From Apteryx mantelli (taxonomy: Eukaryota > Chordata > Aves > Apterygiformes > Apterygidae): a stretch of 64,000 bases of DNA. Location of the stretch: NCBI RefSeq assembly GCF_036417845.1, contig NC_089979.1, positions 122,917,415 through 122,981,414 of the forward strand, written 5' to 3'. The position numbers and the translations under genes were made by a program. This document shows, piece by piece, positions 1 through 52,363 of this stretch (the stretch's first letter is position 1; every line of letters begins with the position of its first letter). The notes under the pieces are model-generated. The model was not told the origin of the DNA. It did not search any database and saw only the letters and a list, made by a program, of their open reading frames with translations.

Positions 1-1259
1 TTGTCAGTAACTCCTGTCTCACACATGAGGTGCTCGAGTGCTCGGTCCCCACCTCAACGGCAGGTACTTGTGTCCACCCTGTCCTCAGCGATAAAGTCCC
101 TGAGACCATTAGTCTCATCCTTTGAGACCCTTCCCCAGAGCTAATTTCATGAACATCTTTCCAAGCTCAAGTTCAGTGATGCTTTTTCCCAAACTATTGC
201 CTCGCTGGTGTACCAGATACCCTCTCACAGACACAAAATGGAATAACTTGTCAAGTCCGTCGGCTTTGCGGTCTCGGAGTGGAGGGGCTCGTTGTCCAGA
301 GCGGAAGCCACAGATTGCTTTATCTCAGGCCGAAACCTTTCAAAACCTGCCAAGCAGCAGCACCTCTTGAGAATCCCCTTCAAACAGGAGAACAACCAGA
401 GCTACGTGCCAAGCTGCAATAAGAAATGGAGACTGAGAGTTGTATAATATTTACATTTAATACGATCCACTGACATCTGACATTTTTCTGGTAAATTTTA
501 CTTGGGCCAGAAACACTTCTGAAACACTAAGTAAATTTTAACTGCTCTGAAGATCTTTTACGCCGGTGGTATCTGTGGTGAAAGTGCAGTGAAATATTTT
601 GCTGTCTTCCTCCCAAACCTCACCCAGCTGGTTCTGTCACAGATTTGGGAACTTTCGTGAGACTTCTTATGCATCCTCTCTACACTGATGCTGCTAAAGT
701 AGCCCCTTTTCTTGGTGTGTTATTCCCCGCTCTCACTGTCACCCTGGTTGCAAACAGAATGGATGTGGCACATTCTTGTGTGGCAAATCCAGCTTCCCTG
801 AGCTCAGATCCCCAGAAGAAGCTAAATCCCCATTCAGTGGGGAAGTTGGTTGCTCTGTACAAACTTTCAGTTCTTGACTCTGTTGATTTTACATTCTCTT
901 TCAGTGATCTGACTCCGATGATTTTACGTTGCCTTTTTGTGATTTGTACACAGCCGCCTCGTGGACGTAACGGTGTCACAAACAGATATCTTTTAAAAAG
1001 CAATAAAAATTCAAAAATGGGGAGATAAAATTAATAGCTGATCAACCAGTCAACCGCTGGTAATGAAACAGAGAACAGATAGACAACGAAAACCTGAGCA
1101 GAATGCGATGGCTCCAGCCTTCGTCTGGAACCTCTGTCCCCAAAACCTTGGAAGAAGTCCAGCGGAGAAGTGTGCTGTCTGAAACAGTATCCTGCCCCAA
1201 AGTTTGGATCAATTTGTGCTGTGCAGCCTATTAACTTTTTGCTAATCCTCCCCACATTA
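1..1259. other. noncoding unique-looking sequence
   Basis: No gene, known repeat or strong regulatory pattern was recognised here. The open frames on both strands are short, overlap one another and resemble no protein family I know. Composition is mixed and contains no long simple repeat. It is treated as intergenic or intronic sequence. Confidence 0.6.
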
Positions 1260-1560
1260 TTTTACATCTTGCCTTCCATCACGAAGAAAGAGGGCTCATG
1301 CCAGAGCCCCAGTGACTAATAGGGAGCCGCCCTTTGAAACAGGAACGCTCAAGTTACAGCCAGGTGCAGGCCTTAATGGGCTCGGGTTATGCTGCCAAGA
1401 CATAATTGCCCTAAATCAGTCTGAGCCCGCACGGAGACAGTTCGCTGTGTTTTGAAGTCCATTTGCCCTTATTGCTTGTTCAGCTCCATAATGCATTAAT
1501 GATAAGATAGCATGGTGAATATGTAATACAGCAGTCCCCCCAAAATCCTGAAGTAATGAA
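1260..1560. promoter_or_regulatory. candidate conserved enhancer block 1
   Basis: This block is dense in transcription-factor-like words. They include CTTAATGGG and CATAATTGCC, the 10-bp palindrome TAATGCATTA at 1489-1498 (POU/homeodomain dimer type), and directly after it a double GATA word, GATAAGATAG, at 1501-1510. It has no LINE similarity and no meaningful open frame. This texture is typical of vertebrate conserved developmental enhancers. Conservation itself cannot be seen from one sequence, so the call rests on site clustering only. Confidence 0.35.
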
Positions 1561-3224
1561 TCAATACTGCACTTATCCACTCTGACTACTGAAAAAAAAA
1601 GGAATAGAGATAAAGCTGGATGCAGAATGAGCACTGGAAATCTCCTCTTTTTCCAAAGATTTCTTTTCTGCTGCCAATGCAAGGGATTTTGTGCATCTTT
1701 AAGGGCCATGGGGGCTGGTTTGCAGAAGTACCCCCCAATCCTGCACCTGACTGCCCTACTCCCTCCCTTGCTGTTTATCTGCTTGGGTGTGTTTTTATAT
1801 GTTTTTCAAGTGCCTTTCTCGAATGAAATGTGCTGCATTAACAAAAATCTTCAGGAAGACCACAGAAGGACCTGAACACCTTTCCTTGTGCCAGGCAGGC
1901 TCTGGAAAGCGGGTACTTAGTGGTCTGAGGACTAGCAAATACACCCACTACCGAGCAACCCTTGGAAAGTTGTTGGGCTGGCCTGCCAATGAAAGAGCTG
2001 CACACAGCTTTGCGCACTGACGGCAGCTCCCTTCGAGCTGCCTGAATCTTGGCAGGGTTTTCTCCCTTCCACCCCTCTGATTAGTGCATTATAACTGCTT
2101 GACAAATCACTGTTGCTCTATTGACACGTTGATGCTGCTGCTTTCTTCTCAGCCAGTCAAGAGGATCCTGTTTGCTGGTAAAGGATGCTTTTGGGCATTG
2201 GAATCACCAAACGACACAAACGTCATCTTGTAAGAGTGAAAACGGCAGATATCCACACAGAGGCTATCATCTTTTTGAAACTGACATCCTCATTTTCATT
2301 TTGCCCCATCTCCTCCTTTTTCGTGTTAAAATTTAGAGGGAGGAAAACCCAGATCAAAAGGGCAAAGGGGTAAAAATCACTGCCCTGGCTTTTCTTCTTT
2401 ACTTAGTGCAGAGTAAGGCAATGAACAGTTTCTACTACCTGCTGATTAGAGCAGTGAACTATCGCTACCTGCCTAGCTCTCACGGCATATCTTGTTCCTG
2501 TCCTTGTCGTTGGTATAAGACAGGGTATGGTCTGACCTGTGTCAGCTGGCTGCAGTCTCAGTAGGAGAGCTGAGGTGGATCTCAGTGTGAGCACAGGTTA
2601 ACTTGCCCCAGTACCCTCTTCCGCAGCACCTATACCTGGACTGTGGGAAGTGCCATAGGCTTGGGAACTAGTTATTTTCAGATAACAGTTGTGAATCTGT
2701 TTATGCGGGGCTTCTTAGCTGGAGGAGAGATCAGCAGTCCAGCTCTGCTTGGTTAGCTATGAAAAATCAGATGAATAATGGGAGAAAGCCTCGCCCTCTA
2801 TATTTTTTTCTCTAGTGCATAAGGCAGTCCTAATACCCTTGTTCTGTCTTGGTTTTGAAAGATTTTTGAATCATTGCATCTTGAGAGACTTTGTGTCCTG
2901 GATCACCTTGAGTTCTGAGTATTATGGTGTACCCAAAATGACTCTGCAATCTGGTGTCGCTCGTAATAAAACTTCTTTATTTACACTGCTATCCTTTACT
3001 AAATTGGATGCATTAACTTCCCTAAATATTCTGGGCTGGCTAAGGGGACTGCTCCTTCAGTAAAGGTCTGTGTCTTTGAAAGCAAAGGTCACGAGTTTTG
3101 TTCCTGTTGCTGCATGTGTGCAACTGGCTGTCACGCAGCCGTGTCTCTGGACGTCTGTGCCAACAGATTTCTATTTCTTCCGACTGGGGCCAGCAGAACT
3201 ACGTGAAGTAAAAGAGATGCTATA
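1561..3224. other. noncoding sequence, nothing recognised
   Basis: Only short shadow reading frames are seen. No splice-bounded exon, repeat family or promoter was recognised. Confidence 0.55.
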
Positions 3225-3480
3225 CAATTAGCAAGTGACACTTCTTATTGCAGGGTGAAAAGCAGAGAAGCCATCTCATTGCTGGATGGAATCGGCTCAT
3301 TTTGAGGTGTGACTCAGCTTGGAGAATTTTCTGCATCAGAGCATTGTGTTTGACAGGGCTGAAGCCGTAAATGATAGCGAATGCGGAGGATCAATGGGTT
3401 GCAGTCAGCAAAATGCTATAGACAAAGGGACAGTCAGCCCAAATTCACTGAAAAAAATCATAAAGCCATAGTGTTTAGAT
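3225..3480. promoter_or_regulatory. candidate conserved enhancer block 2
   Basis: A compact segment of balanced composition contains TGACTCAGC at 3310-3318 (AP-1/MARE type), followed by TTTGACAGGG and ACAAAGG words. It has no repeat similarity and stands out from AT-rich flanks. The enhancer reading is inference from motif density and needs cross-species alignment. Confidence 0.3.
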
Positions 3481-5554
3481 ATTAAAAAGACTTGTAGGTT
3501 ATCCACTGCATCCATTGTTGATGCAGATTTGTGCCTTTTAGTGCATTTTCAAGTGCTTTTTCTAGTCCAGTGCTAAATAACCCAGGATTTCATTGGTCCC
3601 CTTAGGAAGGGATTTCACAGTTCAAGAGATCTTTTCATATGGAACAATTTCCTATGCCTCCACCAAAATGTTCATTTGTTCAGTTTCACCTATTTCTTCT
3701 AGTTATATAGCTTCCAGCCTTGCATGACCCTGGGGATTCTTCCCATGCCTTGGCATCAAATCCTTCAATCCTTGGAGAGAGCAATTATATTTCCCCTAGA
3801 AATCATCTAACTGAGTGATATGTGTTTAGTTACTTTAATCTTTCCCTATTCTTCAGCTTGTTCAACCTTATCTCTGCTTCTCATTTATGAATTTTTCCCT
3901 CTCTTCCATCTTTCCAGGATTATTGAGGCATCTTTAAGTGAACTTAGCATTATACTTTCAGCCTTGTGGAGAGGACCATCATTTTCTTGTACAATGACAT
4001 TTACTATATGATAGGTATTTTCTGAGGTATACAACTCTCTAACACCATACTTATTTTTATATCCAGTAGCACAGCTGGGTGTCTGTCTGCAGTAGAGATT
4101 TCCCACTAATTACCCCTCCCCCCCCTAGACTTTGCTGCTTGGATTGGACAGTGACTTCTGGAATAGGTACTAAACTGTTCTTTGTGTCCTGCACTGGTCT
4201 GAATACTGTACAGCTACCTGAGGAGTAGGATGAGATTATCCAGCATCTGCCTGTGTTGGTTTTCCTATTCCTCTCTTCAAGGCATCTAACACTGAACTTG
4301 TTCAGTATCCTGACTCCAATAAGGCTGAAAGATTTGGCAGTTCCTGTGATCTTAACTGAGATGATTCTTTTCACAGATAAATCCACATGTGTATTTTTTC
4401 TCCTTCAGAGTGAAGAACTGAGACTACAAAAGGGTCCGCAGGTCATCTTTCCCCTCAGTTAGAGGCAGCTGCTTGAAATAGATGTTTAGTCTAGAAGAGT
4501 CCACAGAACTTCTCATATATACACATGCAAGACAAGACACACTCCATCACTGTTGCAAGCACAAGACTTGTAGTATAGAAGACCAAAAGCTACACAAATG
4601 GCAATATGCTTCAAGTAAAGAGCAATGAAGGACACTGCTAATGTCCTAAATCCCCACACCAGCAGGAAATTTGTTAGCTGAAAACGTCCAAATGAAAGAT
4701 GAATCCCCATTCTTACAGTATCTCTAACTGTTCTTCATTGTCTTTTGCCCGGATGACTTCAGTTATTTCATAAATCACCGCAGTTCTGTTGAAGACAAGC
4801 AAGGCACCAAGACGTGCCCTTGTTCTGTGATGAGTAACACTGAGTTGTCACTGTTGGCTCAGAGAAAGGGGAAAAGACTTTTCTGATCTGTTGTTCAAGG
4901 TGGGAAGTCTAAATTCATGCACTCAAATCTCTGCAAAGGCATCAGAATAAGTGACCTACTTGTAACCTGGGCAATTGTAATTCCACTTGTTTAGTGCCCT
5001 GATCCAGCAAAGTACATAAACACCTTAAGAATAAGCACAGGGAAACCTAAGCAGGTTCATAAACATTGATAGATCAGGGTCTACCTGTCCAAATGCAGCT
5101 GTAAAATTGTTCCTTCACTTGGTACACTACAATGGACTTGATGTCCATGTACTTATTTCTTTTAGCCTGAAATTCTATACAAAGCATCACCACTTATGCA
5201 GCAATAAAACCAGTGTTTATTAACCAAAGTACTTTACATTTCACACAGTGCTTTTCACCAAATAGTTGCAAATAAATGGGATGGAAAATGTAGCTTATAA
5301 AATGAAATCCTTGGAGCACTGGCAAAGTTACAGCCCATTCTGTGGAAATATGGAATCATGGTCCATATACATATCGTATCATCGTTTGGGCTTCAGTAAG
5401 CCTAACAAACATGGAATAAAATTCTGTGTCCTCTTTTGCGGAAAGGACTGATCTCTTTCCTCAGGAAAGCAATCAGTAGAACAATGAAAATAATTCATCA
5501 GATTAAAGTACAAATAAGTCCTGTCCTGATGATTGAATGTTATCACGTTCAATT
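3481..5554. other. noncoding sequence, nothing recognised
   Basis: AT-leaning sequence with short meaningless reading frames only. A C8 run lies at 4118-4125. No gene or repeat family was recognised. Confidence 0.55.
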
Positions 5555-5559
5555 TCAAC

Positions 5560-5628
5560 TTAATTATTTTTGTATTTAATTACAGAACAGTTAATTACTT
5601 CATTTTAATTATGTATCTCTTTTAATTA
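5560..5628. promoter_or_regulatory. array of five TTAATTA homeodomain-type sites
   Basis: The 7-mer TTAATTA occurs five times, starting at 5560, 5576, 5591, 5605 and 5622, so the start-to-start spacing is 16, 15, 14 and 17 bp. TTAATTA is the classic antennapedia/paired-class homeodomain core and reads the same on both strands. The sequences between the sites differ, so this is not a simple tandem repeat. An AT-rich background makes single sites cheap, but five at near-regular spacing in 69 bp is notable. Confidence 0.45.
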
Positions 5629-6036
5629 GATTGAGGCAAAAAAAAACCTGATAAGGTTGCTACTACTCCACAGCCCTTGCATTTTTCATTTTATCTCACG
5701 ATGTATCGGCTGATTTCCCTCACTTTGCCGTTAGTTTGGGTCCCTGCTCCATGTCTCTCTCAAAACCCCTGCTTTTGATTTACTTTTACTCAACCTCACT
5801 TCAGCAAAGCCCCGAAGCACGAGCTCCTTGCAAGCCCGTGAGGCTCCCTGCTAGCTCAAAGGAGACTGTGCCCACGTGCTTAACAAAAAAAAAAAGGTTG
5901 TGTTTGATACTTTTGGCTTGCCTCAGCTTTCCCACCATGCCGTGCGGCTGGAGCTGGTTTTGACCATCAAGGTCCCGTTTGCCGGGAAGGAGACACCGCT
6001 CCTCTCTCTCGCCTACTTCCTTGCGGTGTGGGAAAT

Positions 6037-6038
<2 letters not shown>
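5629..6038. other. noncoding sequence before the GT microsatellite
   Basis: It contains A7 and A12 runs near 5638 and 5883 and short frames on both strands. No gene was recognised. Confidence 0.5.

Positions 6039-6075
<37 letters not shown>
6039..6075 (+). repeat. (GT)n microsatellite
   Basis: An uninterrupted run of GT dinucleotides, 37 bp long. Several overlapping open frames here read as Cys-Val or Thr-His repeats only because of this run and are not genes. It is likely to be length-polymorphic. Confidence 0.97.
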
Positions 6076-6078
<3 letters not shown>

Positions 6079-8362
6079 CTCTCATTCACACAGTTTGCCA
6101 AGTGCTTCTTCAATACCTTGAAAACTTCAGGTATCCCCACCGAAATCACGAGGACCCTCCCGTGCATGGAGATACAGTGACCTGGAATTAGGGTGGCGAA
6201 ATGCTGGCCTTCCGTATGGGAACAGGCCACTGAGCAGCGGTTAAGAGGTTATTTGCCTACGCAGTCTATAAAATCTATAGACCGGCATTAGCGTTATCAG
6301 TCAACCCTTCCCAGTGCGATAACTCAGGCGGCTCAGAGCTCTCAGGTGCCGCAGCTGATGCTGAACGGCCCCGGAGGGGAGGCAACAAGTGCCCCTAGGG
6401 GAAACCAGCTGCAGCCAACCGCAGCTCCTCAGCCCAGCCAGCCCACTGATAGCTCTTAGACTGCAATCCGGCCAGACCATCCCGACTTCTGTATTAACTG
6501 GCGTGTTAGCATCTTAACTAATTAACTTAAATTTTTTATTAGTACCTCCTTATAAATGTTGACCATTCAGTGTAGTCAGTGAATGCTAACCTCAGTATAA
6601 ATGCTGAATGAAAGCAATGTGTATGGTAGAATGGAAAGTCCCTTTTGAATATGTATTTCTGCAGCACTTCTTTTCTGCTTGCCGGGATAAAAATGTATTC
6701 CTGAACTTACAGAACAGGAGAAAATCATAAAAGCTTACGAAGCCACAGAAACACGCTCAGACTGAAATGCAGTAGGAGGACTGTTCAGCTGTGTCTGTAA
6801 AAAAATGATACACAAATTCTAGTAATTCATGTTACTCCTACATGTTCAGAAAAGAGAAATACAAAAATATTGGTCGATATTTATTAAGGCTCAGCCTTAT
6901 GCTTCTCAAGATTACTACAAAGTCTTAGGTACAGTCTCAGTCCATTACAAACTCTGTTAATTTTTCATTTGTTTTTTGCAAGACAAGTAAGGGTGGCTTG
7001 CTTGCATAGACTTGCTTGCTGTCTTCACACCTGCTCTCACTAAAGTTCACCACAGGAGCACAACATTTTGTTGATGTGAATAGTCCTACTACGCATAAAC
7101 AACTTCACTGCACTCAGCAGTGGTGGAAGAATGGTGCCTTAGTTAAGATGAGAAGAGGGGAAGGGTTTGGTTAGGCAGTTCACCTTGCCCGGAACTATAC
7201 TGAATTCCAGCAAGATTATTATATACACTCTGAGAATAAGATGTAAACCTGCCAATTTGCAATACCACTGAACAAGCAAACACTTCCCTCTGTTCAGTTC
7301 CGTTAAAATGCCTATAAATATTAACAAAAAAAAATACAGGAAATGTACAGGAAAACTATATTAACCAAACTAAATGTTACAAAATAGTTAAGTATTAATA
7401 AAGCTTTTACTTTTGCACTAATCCCATTCCCTTCAGCTATAAAGCCCTATATAAGACCCTGGCACTTCCTCCCTCTGTTTTTATGGCCATTAACATTAAC
7501 AACAGTATGAACAGCTCTCTCAGGGAGACAAAAAGCTAGCTGACTTGGGGAAGAGTAGCCAAGGCAGTACATGTAGCCCTGCTGCAGACTCTTGCTGCAA
7601 GATTGCTGTGTGTCTCCCAGGGGCTGGTAAACTTAGCAGGAGCTCTGAGACCTGGCAAAGTTGTGTCAGTCTGGGATAGTAGAAAACATTGCTTCTGGGT
7701 GCTTATTTGTGCTGATATCCCTGCCAAGTGTGCACCAGCCAGTCTGTCTCAGGAGGCTGAAGACCCCGAGAGAAGCAGGGTCCCTGTTTTTATTTGTCTG
7801 TCAATCAGACCTGACGTCCGCTTTCCGCCTGGACCTGTCCCACCACTGTCAGCTCCGTCCTTCGATTCTCAATACCAGTCATACTTAAGCTGACAGGTCT
7901 CTTTGCGTTGCTGGCAAGCTAAAAAGACCCTTGAAATCAATGGAGAAGTTTAGCATAATGGAAGAACTTAAAATCTGCCCTCCTAAGGAGTCACCTAGCC
8001 CAGCATTTTGTTTCCAACAGCAGACAACGGGCATGGAGAAAGAATACACAAAAATGAACATGTACAGCACGATCCTTCTAGCATATTTCCCCATCTTTTG
8101 GCACCTACTAACAGAGGGATTTCCTGAGCCAAAGGTTCCATTCAGCCATAGCACCAATGGACCTATTCACTGGGTGTTTGTTTAACCATGTTTTTAATTC
8201 ACTTATATTTTTGGTGTCCACATCATCTTGTGCCAATGAATTCTTTAAATTAATCAAGCACTGTGGGAAAAGAGGTATGTTCTGGGGGGTTTATGTATTT
8301 AGTTTTCATCAGTTTGATCTCTAAATTTTTAATTCAATTTTAAGGCCGGCAATTTTCACTTT

Positions 8363-8375
8363 GGGGGGGGGGGGG
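8363..8375 (+). repeat. G13 homopolymer
   Basis: Thirteen consecutive G residues, one of the longest single-base runs in the left half of the window. It could form G-quadruplex-like structure and is prone to sequencing error. Confidence 0.95.
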
Positions 8376-10115
8376 TTCATTTCAGCCCAGCTGGGTAATT
8401 TTAATTTCAGAAAAATGTTGCATATTTTGAGGTATTTACTCTCTGCTTTTGAAGAAATGCATTTTACATTTTAAGGTCCAAATTTATGCTGACTATTTAA
8501 AGTCATGGCTCTTCTTTCTCTTCCTACTGTGAGAAGGGAGAATTTTCTGAAAGCTTGAAATCTCTCTGAAGGTCTCTGACTGCCAAGTGCTGGAGGTCGG
8601 GTTAGTGGTCTGGGGTGGGTATCAGACATGCTTCCCCTGCTCTTATCTCTCTCCCACATCCTCAGTCAGAGACTGAGCAAAATAGTCCTTGGTCTGACCT
8701 GGCGTGACTGCCTTTGTCGCTTTTAAACTCAGCAACTGAAGTATAGTATGGGCTAGAATATTACTTGAGTAAAACCATACCAGCTAACTAACTTCTGCAT
8801 TATGTCAGTCCTAAGGCACAAACTATCTGTTAGCTGTACCCAAGAAGCAGTCTAATAGATTAGTGCATATGCAAATATAATATCGCTATCCTCATCAAAG
8901 GGCAGAGGACGATTATAAAGGTGATCACACTGGAGAGACCCCGGCTTCATCACAGGACATCTCCCTTTCCTCTGTAGCCGAGCGATAGACTCATCTTTAT
9001 GTTTAAAATGGAAATTCCAAAGCAACTGAGGTGTCACCAGTTAAAAAATTCAGGGAACATGCTAAATTGAAAAGGAGGTGAAAGTTTCCAGTTTTATGTC
9101 AAGAGAGAGCCATTTTTGCACAAACACTTTAGGCTTTACAAGCCCTTTTTCTTCTCCCGCTTCTCAAAAGGGCTCTACTCCTGACATGGGGGGACTTTTT
9201 GGTTAAGTTGCATTGATATTTCTTGTCTGCAAAGATGAGGTTGCACCTTTTTAAATAAACCTAGCCTTTTAAAAAAGACTTTTCTTTGTGCTCTTGGCTA
9301 AGCCTGCCTGCAAGAGTGTGAATGAGCTGATGGTGATAGTGGTTCCTATGATGTACCCGCTTGCCCACAGCAGTGATGATGGGAATGAAGGGGGACGCAG
9401 GCGCTCAGCTCCCAAGCCTGAGAGCTCCCTAAACCCAGAAGGCCTCTGGCAGTGAGCACAAAACCCAGACTTGAACTAAAGCTACATTTTTCGTTGCCAA
9501 CCTGCAACCTCCACGGTGGACCAGGCGGCAGGTCTGACTGCCCTCAGACCATCCCTGGTGTTTGCATCAGTCTTTGAAGAAAAGAAGCAAAGTTCTTTAC
9601 CACTGACAGATCAATGTCATAAAATTCAATATTCAAGGGTCCTTCCCTGGTGGCTTAACCTTTCTCATCTGTGACATAAACTTTACTGCAGCACATAGTT
9701 CAGCACAGGGTCAGAGATCACGCGGCAAGCTCATTTCGGGGGTGAAAGGTCAGAATAAAACGGTGCAGTTCTTTCATTCATAGCCTTAAAACTGCGTAAG
9801 CTCTGCAGCATCGCGGCATGCTAGTCCTTGGTAACCAGGCTGGCTTTGCAAATAGCTATAATCCAATTAATGGAGGTGACAGAGGTGGAAAATGGGGGGA
9901 GCGGGGAATGATGCTGTCAAGAGAGAGTTTGAGTGAAACATTTTTTAGCCACCGTTTCAGAGAGCTCCCATCAAGTGCTTTAACGCTTCAGTTTTCTTTC
10001 CTCTTCTTGATTGTAATACCCTTCTTGAACTTTGCAAATAAAATGTGCTTTCCCTTTTGATTTTTGTCATCATCTGTCTGGCAAGTTATCAGACTTTTAA
10101 TTCCAAGCTTCTTCT

Positions 10116-31345: not shown

Positions 31346-33274
31346 CATACAGAGATAAGTGTGTTAAGCAGAGGGGCAAAGGAAGCATGAAGAGATCAGA
31401 GTAACCGATCCTGGCTTTAGACACAACAGCCAAGACTATTCCCCCCATGCCCTTAGGGGTCCTGGTTGCCCCCTCAGAGGAAGAAGAAAGATGTTTCCGG
31501 AGAGGAAGTCAGATCTTGGTGCCTGTTTCTTTCCTATACAGGGGGTGTCTGATAACTCTGCTCCTGGACTTACTTCAGTGCTTCAAGACCTTTGACAGCC
31601 GACAAAGATGACTCCACGATTTTGGCCTTTCATTACCTTTGAAAGAGAGTGCTGTAAAAAGCATTTGGCTTGTCTATGGTAGAGGATGCTTTTCTTTTTG
31701 TTTGCATTTTGTTTTTTGCACACATGATTCTTCAGTCAGCCTCCTCTTCCAATATATGTGGTCAGTGGCCACTGAATTATTGGCTTATGGGTTTTGTTTC
31801 CTGTTTTTTTTAAAAAGTCTGTCTTGTATCTGTACCTTGCTCTGTAAAACCAGCATTACTCTGTGTTACTTTTAATGATGTTTACTTGATTACCTTTTAA
31901 AACTCCACCAACCACAAAACTATGTCAAAATTGGTGTCCACACACTGCTCACTACTATTGGATGCACTTGATAAACATTGACTGGTAGCACCAGGTTTGC
32001 TGCATACATAAACACATTAGCCTATAAAGTTATTCGTACCAAAGAGCATTTCTGCTGTCAGTTGAAATCCTGTCATCTTTACTCTTGCTAGATTTTGCTT
32101 GGCTCAAGATGTAGTTGTTTCTGTCATTTCCTCACTGGGCACAACACAAAGGCTTTATTGACTATTCTTGCTTGAGTAAAGGAAGATACCAAGAACAGTT
32201 TTGCTTATCTCATAGGCTCCAGTGCATGAAAGACTTGCATTGATAACATTTTCAGCACAGTAGAGGTCAGGCCTGCTGAGAGCCTTGGTTAGTCATATTA
32301 ATTTTTAATTCTTTATTATTCCACCTAATACATTTACAAAAACAGTTCGTATGCACATTTTCCATCTTTCTGCTTCCACCTTTGGGCAGCCTGTGTCCAC
32401 AAACCTGGGTTCTGCTCTACTAGGGCAAACACACCCAAACAGGCCTGCAATCGTGTGAATTGGGAACTGCCCCCAGGAACAGAAATTTTCACTTCCATAA
32501 GGCTAAGCATGCTGAGCCCATTTCTCACTGTGCTGAGGGGCGTCACCTGGCAAAAGGGGTGCCGGAGCCTGGGGGCAAAGCAGCGGAGTTCCCACACATG
32601 AGCTCTGGACCGAGGTCCCTGTGGAGGCACCTTTACACTTACTGCGAGCCAGCTTGGATATCCCCATGCACTGTTTCACAGCAGACCCACATTAGGGACA
32701 GCCCTACCTACAGATCTGTTCTGCCTCTCACCCAGGTGTTGTCCCATACAACTTCCTTATCCATACATAAAATACCCTGGCTCAAGTTGAGTGGCATTTC
32801 CAAGCCAGGCTGGCTGGTCTGGCTGGAATGTCTGCTTCCCATTGAGCTGGTGGGGATGTGGGTTAAAACCATCTGCAGTGTGCTAGTCCTCCAGCATCTG
32901 CGCAAGGACGGATACAATTCGTCCCCTGCTAACAGCCTTTGGTGGGATATCTTCCCAGTAATCTAATTTGCAACACATACAATTTCAGCTGCACAACATC
33001 CTGTGGTAGAGTTCCTCTGTGTAATTGGGTGCTGTGCAAGAAGCATCTTCTTCCCCTGTTTGTTTTGAATTACTCATCATAATGTCAGTCAGCATCCCAT
33101 AACTGTCATGTTAGAGAGCTCCCTTAAAAAATCCTGCCATAATACTTGTGTTGAAGGCAACCATACCAAAAAGACATTAACGTATGGTATAAGAAGAGCA
33201 AAATTAGACCCTTTCTAACAAATGCCACCACCAGATGGCAGGGAAAAAATAACTGAAAACAGTATCTCACATGC
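31346..33274. other. noncoding sequence
   Basis: A 168-codon open frame at 32460-32966 (+) overlaps a minus-strand frame and shows no domain, repeat or homology I can recognise. It is treated as chance. Confidence 0.45.
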
Positions 33275-33842
33275 ACCAGCCTCATTTCGGGCCAAGAGGA
33301 AAAAGTTGCCCAAGGAGCAATCTTGGTGCAGAACCGCATGTCCTTTGGCATGCCCTTTGCAGCCCCACTCCACATGGGCCTCAGCGCTTTCTCCCTCTCC
33401 TAATCCAATCCCAAACCCAAATCCTAATCCTAACCTGAACCCGAACCCTAAACCTAAGCCTAACGCTAACCCTAATCTCAGGCAGGGCCACAACCTGAGA
33501 CCACCAGCCCCATTCCTCACCCAAATGGAAAAGTGCCCCCGGGAGCAGTCTTGGTGCAGCTTCACATTTCCTTCAGCATGCCCTCTGCAGCCCCACTCCA
33601 CGTGGGCCTCAACGCTTTCTCCCTCTCCTAACCCTAATCCAAACCCAAACCCTAACCGTAATGTCGTGCGGGGCCCCAGCCTGAGACCACCAGCCCCATT
33701 CCTTGCCCAAACAGAAAAGTGGCCCTGGGACCACCCTTGGTGCAGCCCTGCATTTCCTGTGGCCTGTCCTTTGTAGCCCCACTCCATGTGGGCCTCAAGG
33801 CTTTCTCTCTCTCCCAACTCTAACCCTAATCTCAGTCACAGC
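33275..33842. repeat. three-copy ~186-bp tandem repeat with embedded telomere-type hexamers
   Basis: Copies start at the shared phrase ACCAGC[C]... at 33275, 33503 and 33689. Each copy runs: a GCAGTCTTGGTGCAGC-like part, a CAGCCCCACTCCAC-TGGGCCTC part, a CTTTCTCCCTCTCC part, then a block of degenerate CCCTAA hexamers (variants CCCAAA, CCTAAT, CCTGAA, CCTAAG). Copies 2 to 3 are 186 bp apart. Copy 1 is 228 bp, exactly 42 bp (seven hexamers) longer, and the extra length sits in the hexamer block. Copy 3 is truncated, with only two or three hexamers. The C-rich telomere strand is on the + strand. Confidence 0.9.
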
Positions 33843-35524
33843 CAAGCATTCCCTTTTCCCAGAAGAGCACAACTTTGGCTTACAACCAAGTTCTGCATCA
33901 CAAAAAATGTGAGACCTTGTACATGTAACTCATGTGAGCAACTCTTACTACTGAAATAAACCCTTCCAGGACATTGAACTTTCCCAGGAATAGGTTTTGC
34001 CTTCATGCGAAAGTTTACAGGTTCATGCTCTGATTTGTCTGATAATTTTTTTATTCTGCTAGCCGAAATTCTAAAAAGAGATTTATTCAGGCAAAGGATA
34101 AAAGCAGCAAGTACTCCCTGTGCAAAGAGATCAAAAAAATCTGTAAATGGCAGAAGTGAGTGAGAAACCATGAACAGCAGCATACTATATTACCCCTGCC
34201 TTGTGAGTCACTTTGGAGCACCTTTTAGTTTATTTATTAAACAGTTTCTGCACAAAGTGTGTTTTGCTCTACTAAAACATCATATAGTGAATGCTAAAAT
34301 GGTGTTGTAGCTCTTAAGCGCTGGGGTGGGGGGAGGGCAGAAATGCCCCTTTTATTCCTAGAGTTATTGTTTTATAAATAAAAGGTGCTGATGACATTGT
34401 GTGTACAACACAGATAGGGCATAAAGAATCACTGCAGTGGTTTGATAGGGATGATCTGCCACTGAAAACCCATTAACGCAGACTGTAGGTGAGCTAAATG
34501 TGCTGAAATTTCGGGATGTGGAATGCCAGGAGAACAGCCCTTAAAATAGTTCCACCAAAAATAGTCCATGTGGACAATAGGAGAGGTTTTTTCCTTCATT
34601 TATTTATATTCCCAGCTCCTTGTCACATTGTCCCTCGAGTGCTCCCAGAGGGAGACAGAGCAGGAGCACAGTTTTGTCCTACGCACACGTGCCACTGCGC
34701 ATTGCTGCGACCTGCTTAGGAACGGGAACACACCTAAAAAGGCAAATCTCCCCCGACCTCAGCATGACAGAGCCGTGGCAGTGAGGAGAGCAAATAACCG
34801 CCTTGAGCAGCTGAAAAACACCTTGGGGAAACTACTGCTCCCCAAATGCCTGAGAGCAGCTCCCCACGAACAGCCAGCAAATCTTGCCATAGAGCCCAGA
34901 GGAAATAAATTAAATATTGCCTACGAGCCGATGGCCTGCTTGAGAGGAGGGTATGAGCACAAGTGTGTGGTTTAATTTAGATTTATATTAGTTTGGTGGT
35001 GGTTAGAATTAAAATCTATTGACAGCCCAGAGTATCTTAAATGGGAATGCATGTGTGTTTTTCAGATTCAATTAACTCTTGGCACAGCGGCCCCCACCAG
35101 CCTGCCAGGCCCCCAAGAGCTCAGGAGGCCTTGCCTGTGTCTCTGGTGGGCAAGCGGACTACACTGGTCAGTCATGACAAGCACCCACCTATTTAATGGC
35201 CTGAGAAAAATCACCTGTCCCCAGTGCATGTGTTACCAGCAAAGCTGCACAGTCCCTCAGGGACTCCAGGCGGTGCCCACGCAGTCTTCACTTCCCTGTG
35301 TAAGCACCTCTTACGTGATTTTGGAGGAAAAATCATCATTCAAGAGGTTAAAATAGTACAAAGCTTCAGCGTGACTCTGGAGATGCTCAGCAGGACCAGC
35401 GTGACTTTAACTAGGATTAAAGGGAAGGACTGAGTGATGCTTTGAGCCACCAGGTACATGCTCCAGCCACATTTCATGAACAGGTGAGACCTAGGCTCCC
35501 TCACCCATCTTTGGTTTCTGCAGG

Positions 35525-40837: not shown

Positions 40838-42039
40838 ATTCCCCAGGAGGGTCACTGGATTAAAGAGCAGCAAGAATAGGGCAACCCCAGTGCCTAAAAG
40901 CAGGGAATAAGAGCCCAAATTAGAGTAACTCAGGTGCTTCAGGCTGGGACATTGCATTTCAAAGGCAGGCAGCAGTGATGGCAACACATTGGCTGGCCCT
41001 GTGGCCCCTGTGGCTCCCTGCCCAGGCAGGATCTGGTCTTCTGGCAGGATCCTGACCCTCAGTGGGGCAAGGTTTGCCCCTGGCTAGGCATCAGCACCAC
41101 TCGCTGAGCCCTCACCAAATACCGGTCTTCAGAAATTGAGGCACAGCCAGCATCACTCTATAAAAATTAGTTTTCAGAATGGCTCATTCTTACAGCAGGC
41201 TGCCAATATATTTTAATGGGATTGTGCAGCCCCCCTGCTCATGCTTTTTAAAAAGAGATAACACCAGGGTCGATATTTTTAATTAAACTCATTTCTTTAT
41301 AGGCGTGAACCAGAACCATCTTCTCCTTGTGAGCAAAATACGTATGTGTATAGGTGTGCACGTTGTGAAAAGAAGCTGGGAGGAGGTGGCTTTCCCTGGC
41401 ACGACTCCCAGGCCTTCTCGTCCCCATTGCAAGCGGGGGCCGCCAGGACGGCCTGTGCCCTCCCTGCCGCCCCCCCGCCCCCCCCAACCTAGTTCAAAAG
41501 ACCTTTTCACACTTTTTTTTTTTTAAACCTGCGACTACAACCCGAGCCATGAATATTTCAGACAACTGGGAAACTCGCTATAGCGCCGTTATTTTGCTAA
41601 TGCTGGGGCCTGCCGTTCCAGCAGCGCGGGGATGCTCCGCCGCCCGAGCCGGGATCCCTCGGGGATCCAGGGCAGGACCCCGCTGCGGCGCCTCGCTCCA
41701 ACGAGATTTTTTTGAGGCACTTCCCAAGTTACAGGCTGGCAGATGTGCTCCCCCCCGGCCCGCTCGGGTGTTACACAGGGATGCCCCCACCTTCACGACA
41801 GACGGGAGAGCGGTGAGGACGTAGCAGGAGCCGCCGAGATTAGGGGAGCCGGCGGGACACGGGCCGAAGGGCGCCCCCGGCGCAGCCCGGTTCCGCGGGG
41901 GGCCCGCAGTTATCCCAGGGAGGGGGGAAGAGCGCGGCGCGGCCCCGCCCGCCAGCGCGCCCCTTCCCGCGCCGCCCGCTGCAGCGCGGCCCTGCCCGGG
42001 GCGCCTCGGGCGGCGCCTTCGCCGCCGGGGACGGGGGGG

Positions 42040-42124
42040 GCGTTCTAGAACGCGGCGGGGGGCGTTTCCGACCGCCGGCGCTCCAGAACGCGGGGCGTTT
42101 CCGAGTCCCGGCGTTCTAGAACGC
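42040..42124. promoter_or_regulatory. three tandem heat-shock-element-like palindromes
   Basis: The 14-bp perfect palindrome GCGTTCTAGAACGC occurs at 42040-42053 and again at 42111-42124. A variant with CTCCAGAA in the core lies at 42079-42092. Between them GGGGCGTTTCCGA occurs twice (near 42057 and 42093), so the block is a diverged tandem repeat of about 32-39 bp. TTCTAGAA is the best tail-to-tail core of HSF1/HSF2/HSF4 sites (nTTCnnGAAn). A third contiguous unit is lacking, so each site is a two-unit element. They lie about 165-250 bp upstream of the TATA box. Confidence 0.7.
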
Positions 42125-42135
42125 GGCGCACCCCT

Positions 42136-42157
42136 CGCCGCCGCCGCCGCCGCCGCC
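42136..42157 (+). repeat. (CCG)n triplet repeat
   Basis: About seven CCG/GCC triplets between the third palindrome and the TATA box. It is part of the CpG island. Confidence 0.9.
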
Positions 42158-42216
42158 CGGCGGGACCCGCCCGGCTCCGCTCCGCAGTGTCGGGGGCTGC
42201 CCCGTCACCTGATCGC

Positions 42217-42230
42217 CGCGCGCGCGCGCG
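42217..42230 (+). repeat. (CG)7 tract, Z-DNA-type
   Basis: Fourteen bases of perfectly alternating CG, about 60 bp upstream of the TATA box. Alternating CG is the classic Z-DNA-forming sequence and is often found near promoters. Confidence 0.85.
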
Positions 42231-42270
42231 CCGCCGCCGCCCCCCCGCTTCCCCCCCCGCGAGCGCGCGC

Positions 42271-42294
42271 GGGGGCGGGGGTGCCCGGTATATA
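42271..42294 (+). promoter_or_regulatory. GC box plus TATA box core promoter
   Basis: GGGGGCGGGG at 42271-42280 (SP1/KLF type) is followed 8 bp later by TATATA at 42289-42294. In otherwise almost pure GC sequence a TATATA word is conspicuous. It predicts a start site near 42318-42326, and the + strand direction agrees with the splice donor downstream. A TATA box inside a CpG island suggests an inducible rather than a pure housekeeping promoter. Confidence 0.65.
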
Positions 42295-42319
42295 CGGCCC
42301 CGCCGCCCCCGCCCCTGCC

Positions 42320-42420
42320 TGCCTCCTGCAGCAGGGGAGGCTGCGAGGCGCCGCCGCCGCCGCAGCCGCCGCCGCGCCGGCCCCCGGCAGGTGGGCGAGC
42401 CGCGCCGGGGCTGCCACGGG
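42320..42420 (+). other. putative noncoding first exon
   Basis: This is the stretch from the predicted start (about 30 bp after the TATA box) to the splice donor at 42421. It is GC-rich with (GCC)n runs and has no ATG before the donor, so it would be 5' untranslated. The gene is not identified. Because no convincing coding exon follows closely, intron 1 would be long, either to the small candidate exons at 44.5 or 57.0 kb or beyond the window. The start position is estimated from TATA spacing; the end is set by the donor. Confidence 0.5.
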
Positions 42421-42426
42421 GTGAGT
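42421..42426 (+). other. strong 5' splice donor (GTGAGT)
   Basis: CACGGG is followed by GTGAGTGCG, an almost ideal vertebrate donor, about 100 bp after the predicted start site. Chance GTGAGT words do occur in GC-rich DNA, but the position fits a first exon well. Confidence 0.55.
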
Positions 42427-42602
42427 GCGCGGGCGGCGGGCGCGGGGCTCCGGCCGCCCCCCCACCCTTCGCCGGGTGGGGGCCTGGGGGAAGGCGGCGG
42501 GGAGCGGCGCCGTCGCGGGAAGGGGCGCGCCGGGGCGCGCCGCTGCTCGCGGGGGCGGGCGGCGGCGCGGGGCGAGCCCGGGCCCTACCTGTTGCGGAGC
42601 CC

Positions 42603-42612
42603 GGGGGGGGGG
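42603..42612 (+). repeat. G10 run in CpG island
   Basis: Ten consecutive G residues just downstream of the putative first exon, with more G4 or longer runs around it. The + strand transcript could form G-quadruplexes here. Confidence 0.9.
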
Positions 42613-43050
42613 TCGGGCAGCCCCGTCCCGGGGCCGCGGTGCGGGAGCGCAGGCCGAAGCAGCGGGCGGGGGGCGGCGGGGCAGGGCAGCGCGGGGGGGC
42701 TAAAGTTGAGGGCGGCAGCGGCCCGGGCGGTGTCGGGGGGGCCCGGCCCTGCGGCGGCCGCGCCGCTGCTGCCCGCGGGGGCTTGGGGCTCGCCCGCCGG
42801 GGGGGCCGCCGCTGCGGGGCTTCCGGAGGCGCCCGGAGCCGCGGGGCCGGGCGCGCTGGCGGGGCCGAGGCCGGGGCGGGGGGAGCCAGCCTGCGCCGTG
42901 TGGCACCTGCATTATGTCGGTTCGTGGCCAGAGCCTCCGCCTTGGGCTCTGCGTGGAAAGTTGCTAGAACTCCCCAAATGGGAAGTTATTTTACAAAGCG
43001 CAGCGCCGAAAGGCCGGGCGCCGGTGCTGCCGCCGATTTAAAAGGCTGCT

Positions 43051-46000
43051 CGTATGGAAGCTCTCTTCAAAACCTGCCCCTCTTGCACCATTGCGCAGAG
43101 GTTCCTTATAGCACATAAGCATTGTCATAGTAAAAGTCTGTGGCCTTAATTCAGCCTGCTGATAGTCGTGGAGTTGTATGTAATAGGTGCCAGGTTAGCT
43201 CTCCAAGCTGTGTGCAGTATTTTAAAATATACACAGTGAAGGGTGGAAAAGACTCCCCTTCCTACAAGCAGTTGCAGAAGAAATGTTTTTCTAAGACTTG
43301 CGTTGTGTTTGCTTTTTAAAACAAAGTTCTGCCAGCATCAGATGCTAGCCGCTATTTACCTGACCAGGTATCCAGCAAAAGCCGGCTTCAGGTTTTTTCA
43401 TTTGCATTTTTGACCGGTTGTCAGTCTGTCTGGAGAAGAAGCCTCTCTGCAGGAGTACACCGTTGCAGGAGTTGTGGCGTTTCGGTGTGGCTGTGCCTGA
43501 GTTCTGCTTACGTGCCCGGGAACCGCTGCACGGGAATGTTCCAGAAGGGAACCCGTTCTCGCAGCAGTACAGGCGCTGTCTTGTCTGTAGCAGTGCTCCA
43601 GAGCACCCACCTCTCGCTAGCGACCGCACAAGTGGAATAAGCAATCGGGTTTTGACACTGATACAGCAAATCTCATTTTAACCCAGAAGGAGATAATATA
43701 AAGCTTCTGCGCTAAGTGTCTGTGATGCAGAGGAATTGCAAGGAGAGCTTGGCTTTCCTCGTGCAATCGTTGTACCAAACTGTAATTGTAGCTCTGTGCA
43801 ATCATTTATGTTTAACAGGGAACCGCTAGAAAATATTTTTGCTCTGCTGCTTCTACTGAAGTGGTTTTGTGAAATCCAGGTTGCTACAACCTGAAGGAAG
43901 CTAAAAATGGCAATATTTGTTAATCCTTCTTTTTAACAAACCCTTTCTTCCTGTGATGTGCCAGTAGCTCCCTTTGTAAAATAGATGTTTAAAGACTTTG
44001 TGCAGCAGGATGGAGTCTTTTGCTTTCTAACAAACCAGGCAGATAGCACAAAATCAGCCGAGACGGGGCAGTCTACTCACAGTGACAAGAGGAAGAAGAG
44101 TGCTTGAAGAGACCTTGATTTCAAGCATCACCTTGCATGTCCTACCATTTGTCCTACCCAAGCAAAATTATTACCTCTTGAAGGTGTGAAATACATGGAT
44201 TTCAAAAAGCCTTTCTTGTTTTTCTGGGCCTTACCAGGAGGGAAACGGCTACTCGTGAGCAGACACTTTAGGCGTTTCTCAAATGTTCTTCCATTGTAAC
44301 CGTAACTTCAAGAGGTTAAAGTACCTAGAACACTTCTCCTGTCTAGTAGCTGCACCTTGCATAACGTGCTTAGAATAAGCATGTCGTTGGCAAAACCATA
44401 GGTAGCGCTGGGGAAGGGCAACTTTTGCGGTTGAAACTCACAAAGCCAGCAAATAACATCTCCACCAATACCTGGGTCTTGCAGGTCTTCAGCGTGGCTG
44501 ACACGGCTACAGCTTCCTGTCTGCGGCTCAGCGCAATGTGTAAGTATGAGAGGTGTTTCTCCCGTTTTTGTGTGGCTTGCGGTAGACTATCCTTTTCTGA
44601 CTCCTTCCCCCTCCCCCCGCCTCTTTATTCTAAATGGGGTGTTTGCGACAAACTGGGAAGTAGCATATTGCAGATGTTTTTGGTGGAGAGGCATTATGGG
44701 TAATATCTGACAGTCTCCACCTTTGCTTGCATGAAGGGGTCTGGTTTTGCATGCCAAAAACACATCACCAGCAAAGAATTTGCCTGTGTTTCCAGTCCTC
44801 ACCTCACTGTCACCTACTTATTATGAAAGAATGGGATATAATTCTCTTAATTTGTGGCAACATTATGGCCTTTCTTGATTCATTGACGTATCTGAAGGTA
44901 GGTACCCCAAGGACTTCATTAATACCACTAAGCGCTCAATGAATAGATGAAAACCACAAAGCAAAACTAAGGTATGGTAATATGTGACTTGGCTTTCATG
45001 TGAAAATAGTGCTTTTATCTGATAAGAATACTCTCTGAACTGTCTTATCGGTGTGAAACATCTGCCTATTAAATCCCTGTTCAGAAGGGGAGAGTTGGCC
45101 ACACTGCCATACGGGTTAAGTAATGGTCGATTAATAGGATTCTGTTAAATACATGCCTTGGAGTATTAGTGTAAGGAATAACTGTTCTTAATATGCCTGT
45201 ATTTTGACTTCAGAGTAAGTCCATGTTTCTGGGAGCTCTTCATACTGCATAGATGCATCACTGTTATCTGGAGATGCTAAGTAGGTCTTAAAAAGATCTT
45301 AACATCATTTTTTTTTTCCCATCCACAGCATCAGTTTTAGAAATGAGAAGGGAGGGGGGTTGGAAATTAGGCCCTCCTGAGAAAACCATGTCCTACCTGA
45401 TTACTTTCCCTTTAATACATCAGACTAAATGACACTCCATTTTGACTTGTGTTAACATTATGTTGTTGGCTAGTGTTAGGCTTGCATTCTTAAGAGACAG
45501 GTGAGGATTACAAATTTCTTTTTAACTCAACTGAGTGCATATAGCAAGTCCTAGAAGGAGAACATGATATTACATTTTCTGTTTTCAAAACAATTTTTAC
45601 GTATTTTCTATAGTTCAACAGTGCATCTTCAGTATTTTTCATAATGTATATATACTTGGTATTTTATATTAAGGTAAGACTGCCTAAAATCATTCATACA
45701 AATAATGATTAAGTAAATGTGATGCAAATTCTTACATGAGAAACTTGATATTTCCCCTTGTTAGGAATTAGGTGGTTAAATCCATGTATTTATTGCAAAT
45801 TCTATAACTTGGGTTTCATAAATAAGTGTGAAGTTTTCTAACAAATATTATACATTTGTATGTCCGTGTATATGCATGGTGCAGGGAGAGAAAGCAATAA
45901 CCTTTCTTCATCTTATTTCAACTGTTATGTTCACCTTATATGCAGATAGAACAAGGTTGATGCAGGCTGTGTTTTAAAAAGGTAGGGGAAAAGATCCTTG

Positions 46001-46249
46001 TTCTCAAAATATTTTTAGGAAACGTAATTAACCAGTATAGGCTTGCTGGGAGGAGGGGAGGGGGAAGAGGGGCTTTGGAGATGGGTTGTTTTTGTTTCTT
46101 CTGGTGTTCTTTCATTTGTTAAGAATTGGTTTCCCAGTTTGGGAATCAGCAAGGGAAGGAGAGGTGGGAGATGTTATTACAGGAAAAAGATCAGTGCTGT
46201 TCTCTTCCTTCATTGTTTCATCCTTGAGTTTTTCCTTCTCGAGTCCGAC
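43051..46249 (+). other. probable intronic sequence
   Basis: If the promoter reads rightwards this is intron 1. It is AT-leaning, with no recognised interspersed repeat. A candidate exon at 44485-44539 is listed separately. Open frames are short and overlap on both strands. Confidence 0.45.
44485..44539 (+). other. candidate 55-bp exon
   Basis: An acceptor with a modest pyrimidine tract (TGGGTCTTGCAG ending at 44484) is followed 55 bp later by an ideal donor (GTAAGTATG from 44540). The interval is less AT-rich than its flanks and carries an ATG four bases before the donor. It could be an untranslated or alternative exon of the gene starting at 42.3 kb. Evidence is splice-site quality only; no peptide could be recognised. 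Confidence 0.25.
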
Positions 46250-46620
46250 CTGCCGAAAAGGTACCTCGGGAGGGGAGGAGAAGAGGAGGGCATATTTGGG
46301 GGACGCCCCCGCGCTGTGGCGGGGCCGTTCAACGGGAAAGCGGCGGCGGAGCCCGCCGGTGCCCGGGGCGGCGCCGTGACGGCGGGCCGCCGGCTGGGTG
46401 GGGCGCGGCGCGGCGCTCCGCTCGCGGCGAGCCCTTTGTCCGGGAAGCGCCTGGAGCGCGGTGGTCGCCCGGCAGCCGGCGGCCCGCCGCACCTTTCGAA
46501 CGGCGCGAAGACGGAGTTAGTGAATGCATCTTCCGGTTGCCACGCAGTGTGCTTGGGGGGGGGGGGGGGTGCGTTACCGGAGCCACGACTCTTGCCGCTT
46601 TGGTTCGTATCGCAGCATGA
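46250..46620. promoter_or_regulatory. second small CpG-rich island
   Basis: CpG-dense sequence begins abruptly near 46.26 kb and ends near 46.60 kb with a G15 run inside AT-leaning flanks. No TATA box or first-rate donor was seen. It may be an alternative promoter, an intronic enhancer-like CpG island or an antisense start. The open frames of 85-199 codons through it, on both strands, are Gly/Ala/Arg/Pro-rich and explained by composition. Confidence 0.6.
46555..46569 (+). repeat. G15 homopolymer
   Basis: Fifteen consecutive G residues at the right edge of the small CpG island. Confidence 0.95.
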
Positions 46621-48857
46621 CGGCTTGGAGCTGGATTTGTAAAATAATTCCTGTTTAAATCATTGCTGAAGCCTTGAGCAAAAGAAAAGCCCCGTGTGCA
46701 GCTCTTAAACTGCTTTGCCTGATTATTTTTAAGGTTTCTTTTCCTTGCAAGTGTAATGAATTAACTTCCTGAGAGTTTCACATGGCAGCTGGAGAATACA
46801 AATCTTCCTGTTCCTAAGCTGCATTTTAAGTCTCCTGTATTATTGAATGGATGGAATTACTAGATAATTACAGAAAACCTACTGCATTATCTAAGTTAAA
46901 TGTGGGCATTGTTTAAAACGTTAGTTTAATGAGATAAAGCATTATTAAAAGCTCCTGGTGGGAAAAATATATTTGTACTTTTTTTTAATGCTGAAAATGC
47001 TACATGATCATTAAAGAACTTGTAGCATTTCACAAATGGGATACCTGCAAGATACTGTTAATTTTTAAAGCTCTAGCATGTAAAAGCAAGTCTAATAATC
47101 CCAGATGTGTAAGCAACTATTCATGTTTTGCCAAGTTTGAAACGTTTTAGTATAAAATGTATAGCTCGTGCAAGACTCTAGCAAGCCTGAGTATATTGAA
47201 AATTGTGTTGTGCAGGAATCTGCTGCAATAGTGAATTTGGGGGGGAATTACATATGATTGTGAGGTGTCTAAGAAATAATAAAACTAATATTTGTGCTGG
47301 TTTGCTAGTCCATTAAACATTTTTAAACGCCTCAATCCCTTTTAAAGGAAGTAATTAAGCAAGTGTTAAATTGTAAATGAATGCTAGATGACAGTATCGC
47401 CACTGAAATGCAGAATTCTCTATGGTTTATACTTTCTGTGGAGACTAATAGAATTTAATTTGCATGTGTCGAAAAGAAAATGGTGGCTTCTCGTCATCGC
47501 TCAGTGAAGACTGAATAGAAAACTGATGTGAAGTCTTAACACTAAGACACTATTTTGCAAAGAATAATGTGTATACTGAAGTATCATCATAAAACTAGAC
47601 AACTTTTAAAATGAGCAGTAAATATTTTGAGGTGCAGTTCTTCTGTGCTTAGTATCAGAGTGTTATAATGGGTATCTGCATTAATAGTACACACTCAGGC
47701 TTATGTGTTGTATTATAGATAAAATTAAAATAGGGACTAGGCTAAAGAGGGAAACATTAAGTGCTATCCAGGAATTGATTTTTTTTTTTCTTTTTTTCCT
47801 TAAGCTTATCTAAGATAATCAATGGTAAGATGAAAAAGTGTAGATGGTAAAATGGTACATATTTATCATCTGTGCAGTATTGATCTAGATGAAAAGGAAA
47901 CAAGTAAAAATCAGCATTTTAAATAGAACTTAAAAATGAATCTCTAAGACTTTGAAACCTGTAATCAGTGTAAATTGGAAGGGAGGAGAAGGAAGAGATT
48001 GGGGTCTCCATTGTAGGAGCACAGCACATGCTCTACTTCAGCTCTATATTTAAGGAGTTAAGTATTGTGATGGAAAAGATGAAGTGACCATCTAAACTTA
48101 CTGGATTTCAAATCAACTAGTGGCACTTGTGAATTATACAGAGTATTTCTGAAAAATCAGTGTGGTGCATCTGTGCTTTGTCTGAGTAGCAGACCTGTTT
48201 GCAGAGCTGTTTGTCACACTGTCATTTTTATTATAATAGAGCTTATATGGAAATATTTCTGCAGTGCATCTAAAGGAAAGACAAATGGCAGTGTTTATGG
48301 AAGGTGGCAGATTATACTGCAATGTGCATTAGGGAGGAGGGGGTTGTTACCCCCCAGCCTCCTTAAAAGAAGGGATTTACATTATTTTGTTCAAATGTGG
48401 TGCATGTTATATTGGACTAAGGTAAAGATTAACGCAACCGATCCTTAACTTGGTTAAGGACTGTAGGTCCTGCCCCAAGGTAAATAAAGAATACGGTTTT
48501 GTTTGCCCAAACAGCTTCCTCCTGCAGTCTTACTGTGTAGAAAAGAGTTGGGAGTCTGTTCTCTTGTAATTGCTTGTCTTGCATATAAATGAATTAAAAC
48601 TAGATGTTTTTTGAAGAAGTTTGGCTTTTCTAACAAAACAAAAGATTTGGGGGGGGGTGGAATTTTTCTTCTTTTACTTCAGTTGAAGGGCCTGGTTCCA
48701 TTTTAATATGTCTGTATTTAAAGAGCACAAACATCAATTTCAAAATAAATAAATGGTGACCTATTTAAGTAATGTAAAGCAGCAATTGCTCCTGTAGAGT
48801 TATGCTGTTCAACTTTAGTAGGGAATGTGGCCCATTATAATTCAGCAATATGCTGTT
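46621..48857. other. AT-rich probable intron
   Basis: Nothing protein-coding or repetitive was recognised. Homopolymer T and G runs occur at 47779-47788 and 48649-48657. Confidence 0.45.
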
Positions 48858-51800: not shown

Positions 51801-52363
51801 GCAAGCTGGCTGAGTTGGGCTGTGAGTCCTTCCCCCTTGTATAGCACTGTCTTGATCACCAAGGTGCTGTGGAAAGTCACTGATCTGCTCCCCTGTGGGG
51901 CATGTATTCAGGGTTTTTCTATTCACTGTCAGCTCCTACCTAACAACAATATAAGCATTATATAATCTGCTGGCTGTGTATTTCTCAGTTGACATCCCAG
52001 TCTTGATTATTTCCTTTCATTGCTCACCTTGTTCTTCTCTAGCTGCTGCTGTGTCTGCTGCAGATCTTGGTGCTGTCACTTCGATTGGCATCCCGTTGCA
52101 GTGGTGCTGCTAATAGCAGATGGTGCAAGAGCTCACACCTTAGATGCTTCCCAGAAGAGGCACAGATGCAAGTTCAGGCTCCTTAGGAGCAGGCATTTCT
52201 GAAAATGCATACCCGACAAACAGCAATGGCAACAACAATAGAAAGCTTCGGCAGGTATCTCACATGTACTCTATTTATGGTCCCAGCACCCTATTTCAAA
52301 ATAGTAACCAGAGCAATTAGTAACTGGAGCAATTAGTAGTCAGTAATCTAATGTGTCCTGGGA

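Follow-up and report, generated by a model that had tools for sequence, protein, structure and literature searches.

Within a window of 64,000 nucleotides from the genome of Apteryx mantelli (contig NC_089979.1, positions 122,917,415 to 122,981,414; all coordinates below are those of the window), we identified a tandem array at positions 33274-33843, in which three head-to-tail copies of one unit each carry a block of degenerate CCCTAA-type, telomere-like hexamers. The array is probably a small, old and non-coding minisatellite that was born in place around a short degenerate interstitial telomere-like sequence. It is most likely an ordinary one, and we propose no active function for it.

A three-copy repeat at two scales

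The three-copy repeat is real and stands well above chance. Ungapped self-matches scored 103 at an offset of 186, 82.5 at 228 and 57.5 at 414, whereas the best self-match at offsets of 100-499 fell to 20.5 once the array was removed, and first-order Markov shuffles of the window, 15 in all, reached no more than 17.0. The best 36-bp match to CCCTAA was 0.89, compared with a maximum of 0.639 across 10 Markov shuffles. Tandem Repeats Finder reported a 186-bp period with 2.0 copies (score 501), along with hexamer-scale rows within copy 1. Self-matching, Tandem Repeats Finder and alignment all recovered head-to-tail copies of one unit, as in a minisatellite, and together confirmed, against the shuffles, the original prediction of a three-copy tandem unit with degenerate telomere-like blocks. 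Like minisatellites and small satellites, the array consists of head-to-tail units (156-228 bp) whose copies are divergent; it differs from them in having three copies only and a second, hexamer-scale repeat within each unit.

Each unit comprises a 124-bp segment (part A), a hexamer block kept in perfect register and a 26-bp tail (Table 1). The hexamers had been taken to close a unit with a non-telomeric part of about 130 bp; the tail in fact comes after the block, and the non-telomeric portion is 124 bp plus 26 bp, or about 150 bp. Copies 1, 2 and 3 measure 228, 186 and 156 bp. The 42-bp excess of copy 1 had been recognized correctly as exactly seven hexamers located inside the block, while a further difference, the 18 bp by which copy 3 is shorter, had been overlooked, masked by the equal 186-bp spacing. 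In copy 3 only the first 14 of the 26 tail bases are present before unique flanking sequence begins, which places the end of the array near 33843. Complete copies differ in length solely through the hexamer block, and by multiples of six; across all copies the differences are confined to that block and the shortened end of the last copy, which bears out the earlier suggestion that whole-unit duplication and hexamer length change acted at two scales.

Table 1. Components of the three-copy array, in window coordinates.
Feature	Positions	Strand	Description
Copy 1 part A	33274..33397	+	124 bp; nhmmer 1-124, E 2.3e-39 (copy included in model)
Copy 1 hexamer block	33398..33475	+	13 CCCTAA-type hexamers, 2 perfect, 14 mismatches
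Copy 1 tail	33476..33501	+	26 bp; final 12 bp (33490-33501) form the junction filler
Copy 2 part A	33502..33625	+	124 bp; 23/124 differences from copy 3; nhmmer
Copy 2 hexamer block	33626..33661	+	6 hexamers, 2 perfect, 5 mismatches
Copy 2 tail	33662..33687	+	26 bp; final 12 bp (33676-33687) match first filler at 10/12
Copy 3 part A	33688..33811	+	124 bp; alignment, nhmmer
Copy 3 hexamer block	33812..33829	+	3 hexamers, 1 perfect, 3 mismatches
Copy 3 partial tail	33830..33843	+	14 bp, then unique flank

Realignment showed the copies to be collinear, with part A aligning without a single indel across all three. Ungapped, its 124 positions differed at 24 between copies 1 and 2, 23 between copies 2 and 3, and 28 between copies 1 and 3, a divergence of 19-23%. 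Tandem repeats are prone to assembly error, and copies could in principle have been gained or lost in assembly; this divergence is far above haplotype or read error, and we regard such an artefact as the most improbable of the explanations considered here.

Degenerate hexamer blocks

Five of the 22 hexamers are perfect CCCTAA, and mismatches affect 22 of the 132 bases. Copies 1 and 2 share two variants in place (TCCTAA in hexamer 1 and CCCAAA in hexamer 4), so the block was partly degenerate before it was duplicated. Within the copy 1 block, Tandem Repeats Finder also detected a 2.1-copy repeat with a period of 30 bp, compatible with the block having expanded from within by several hexamers. 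Within 33398-33829, positions 1 and 4 of the hexamer account for 17 of the 22 mismatches (naive P 3e-5), and counted over the 12 distinct hexamer variants the figure is 12 of 17 (P 0.0019); the pattern was spotted post hoc, and hexamers are not independent, as slippage spreads variants.

The canonical four-run quadruplex motif does not occur in the array. YAACCCTAR is the binding consensus of the telomere protein TRF; each copy contains it once, and neither strand of the window has it at any other place. Given the number of hexamers this is not striking, and the idea of a TRF site was set aside.

The blocks resemble short interstitial telomeric sequences (ITS) in having few CCCTAA-type units, in a single orientation, inside a chromosome, and differ in that every copy of a longer tandem unit contains one such block. 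With 13, 6 and 3 hexamers, two of the three reach the minimum of four tandem units set for short ITS. Mismatches number 14 over the 13 units of copy 1, 5 over the 6 of copy 2 and 3 over the 3 of copy 3, and copy 2 alone would be admitted under the mismatch limit given in a passage of PMC7215372. Conserved older mammalian ITS average 0.29-0.40 mismatches per unit, in sets pre-filtered below one (an excerpt of PMC2246262). No telomerase RNA sequence was found beside the blocks, where an ITS of the TERC type would have one: Rfam gave no matches at gathering thresholds in the window and, in 32800-34300, none even at E values up to 5, and a telomerase-RNA remnant was rejected.

Probable local birth and estimated age of the array

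The 12-bp fillers at the two internal junctions resemble each other at 10/12 positions, and the outer flanks match them at 1-2/12. The array amounts to about three whole units minus one filler, and a near-whole number of units is what local duplication predicts. Taken with the lack of further copies nearby, these features, each of them modest evidence, lead us to favour local birth. Under this scenario, the starting unit would have contained a short interstitial telomere-like sequence that had already degenerated, and would have duplicated once, leaving 12 bp of filler between the two copies. Unequal exchange may next have copied unit and filler to give three copies, the number of hexamers per copy may have been altered in six-base steps by replication slippage or unequal exchange, and the copies would afterwards have drifted apart. 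Jukes-Cantor distances between copies (0.21-0.27) would correspond to an age of about 36-90 million years at an assumed 1.5-3e-9 substitutions per site per year; gene conversion would raise the true age.

Several observations weigh against a local minisatellite. A random cut of a longer array would end 12 bp or less from a whole unit in about 1 in 7 cases, which makes the array edges weak evidence. The 14-bp tail of copy 3 resembles that of copy 2 at only 7/14 positions (11/14 for copy 1). Neutral DNA with approximately 40 substitutions would be expected to carry somewhat more indels than the zero seen here (P 0.007-0.057, depending on the assumed indel ratio). The concentration of 17 of 22 mismatches in a period-3 pattern is an oddity that this origin leaves without explanation. 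Unit copy number was assessed within the 64-kb window alone, where a 42-bp stretch at 52060-52101 partly resembles positions 44-89 of part A (score 22 with a cheap-gap aligner). This score was reached by 0/1000 and 1/1000 shuffles for two overlapping segments, among about 1,250 segment-strand tests, and nhmmer omitted the match; the resemblance is probably due to chance.

Further copies and a possible dispersed origin

An alternative, which we consider possible although unlikely, is that the array represents a captured subtelomere, as suggested earlier, or one piece of a repeat family, dispersed or subtelomeric, whose unit includes a telomere-like block and which was moved to or left at this site. 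As in the subtelomeric ITS described in parts of PMC7215372 and PMC6410037, degenerate hexamers occur here together with a second kind of tandem repeat: 5/22 hexamers are perfect and the block is set within a 150-bp unit. The hexamers are also somewhat farther from CCCTAA (22/132) than the copies are from their own consensus (40/372; Fisher P 0.089). The array, however, has only 22 hexamers, compared with the thousands of units given for subtelomeric-type ITS in a section of the review PMC9693754. No significant second locus was found: neither self-BLAST (E 1e-4) nor nhmmer (next best E 6.7) returned a further copy in the window, and a decayed fourth copy was rejected, as the 201 bp to the right and the 214 bp to the left of the array were no better than shuffles (P 0.33 and 0.51, 500 shuffles each). 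The window has 43% G+C and no other satellite array was reported in it (11 Tandem Repeats Finder rows, none of them a long array), and its self-BLAST held no dispersed repeat pair, which fits a repeat-poor genome.

No inverted termini of at least 6 bp were present at the array, and the sole direct repeat near its edges is 6 bp long (ATCTCA, at 33264 and 33829 only) and lies within the tail sequence itself. Pfam yielded no domain, transposon domains included, at E 0.01 in the frames scanned, which were six frames of 25001-64000 and three plus-strand frames of 1-9999. A non-autonomous element would be recognized by copies across the genome. Fragments of CR1, MIR and SINE-core elements matched the window no better than shuffled queries did.

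With BLAST, the array matched 12 phage records and 15 plasmid records; the highest-ranking rows cover the hexamer block only (query approximately 125-204) and the lower rows approximately 351-388. A 22-base pattern from part A had no matches in viral contigs and one in microbial genome contigs, where an ordinary bacterial stretch without an array was judged a chance match. The literature search found no title describing the array unit, which does not prove that none exists; Hitchcock, a chicken repeat named in part of PMC4992247, was considered by name only.

No signature of chromosome fusion

The array had also been proposed to mark an old chromosome fusion. A relic of telomere-to-telomere fusion is expected to be head-to-head, with TTAGGG and CCCTAA blocks opposed. 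All three blocks share the CCCTAA orientation, and no TTAGGG-oriented block of at least 70% over 36 bp exists in the window; because there is no opposed block, a fusion relic is not supported, and we rejected it as highly improbable. The blocks are, moreover, merely 18-78 bp long and sit inside a 150-bp unit. What the array shares with the fusion ITS at human 2q13 is telomere-like repeats at an internal site, without the head-to-head order. Telomere-like repeats inside a chromosome do lend the idea some plausibility, as ITS are reported in several birds in a section of PMC9693754.

Coding potential

We also considered whether the array is, or was, a translated tandem repeat, in which the hexamers would give Leu/Phe-Gly dipeptides on the minus strand or Pro-Asn dipeptides on the plus strand. 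In both the minus-strand Leu-Gly frame and the plus-strand Pro-Asn frame, the third base of each codon falls on one of the two mismatch-rich hexamer positions, 1 or 4, no length change breaks the frame, and a 206-amino-acid minus-strand frame (33215-33835) is the longest listed outside the two CpG islands of the window. Its ratio of nonsynonymous to synonymous change (dN/dS) of 0.45 was the lowest among the six frames. This value is not unusual: of 2000 simulations, 350 stayed open, and among these P was 0.10, or 0.085 when the lowest value across open frames was taken. Part A has no excess of third-position changes in the minus frame (21, 26, 28), the plus frame carries a stop in copy 3, and the period-3 pattern itself is subject to the post hoc choice and shared variants noted above.

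Protein comparisons were no more favourable, with no Pfam match to the array and no PDB match to the minus frame. The plus frame matched only Asn/Pro-rich circumsporozoite protein repeats (E 3e-4 and 6e-4) and internalin K (E 0.24), which we read as low complexity. With neither significant tests nor a useful protein match, a coding array was rejected as very improbable, and it seems a shade less probable still that the hexamer blocks are or were codons of a telomere-derived repeat captured into a repeat protein, in which mainly every third base would be free to change.

Surroundings of the array

CpG islands occur at 41301-43300 and 45951-46850, and since they begin at 41301 the array lies approximately 8 kb from a likely promoter. 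GC skew becomes mostly positive beyond the islands, which would fit the start of a plus-strand gene. No exon or domain was identified near them, and a crude exon scan of the window gave four candidates, none convincing. A 33-bp tandem repeat (2.5 copies, Tandem Repeats Finder) lies within the first island at 42039-42128. Rfam and ARAGORN found no matches in the window.

Implications

The array is a small natural case in which unit duplication and hexamer length change come together at one locus. It also serves as a caution that an internal, degenerate CCCTAA-type block need not indicate chromosome fusion. If the unit recurred at bird chromosome ends, it would mark subtelomere movement.
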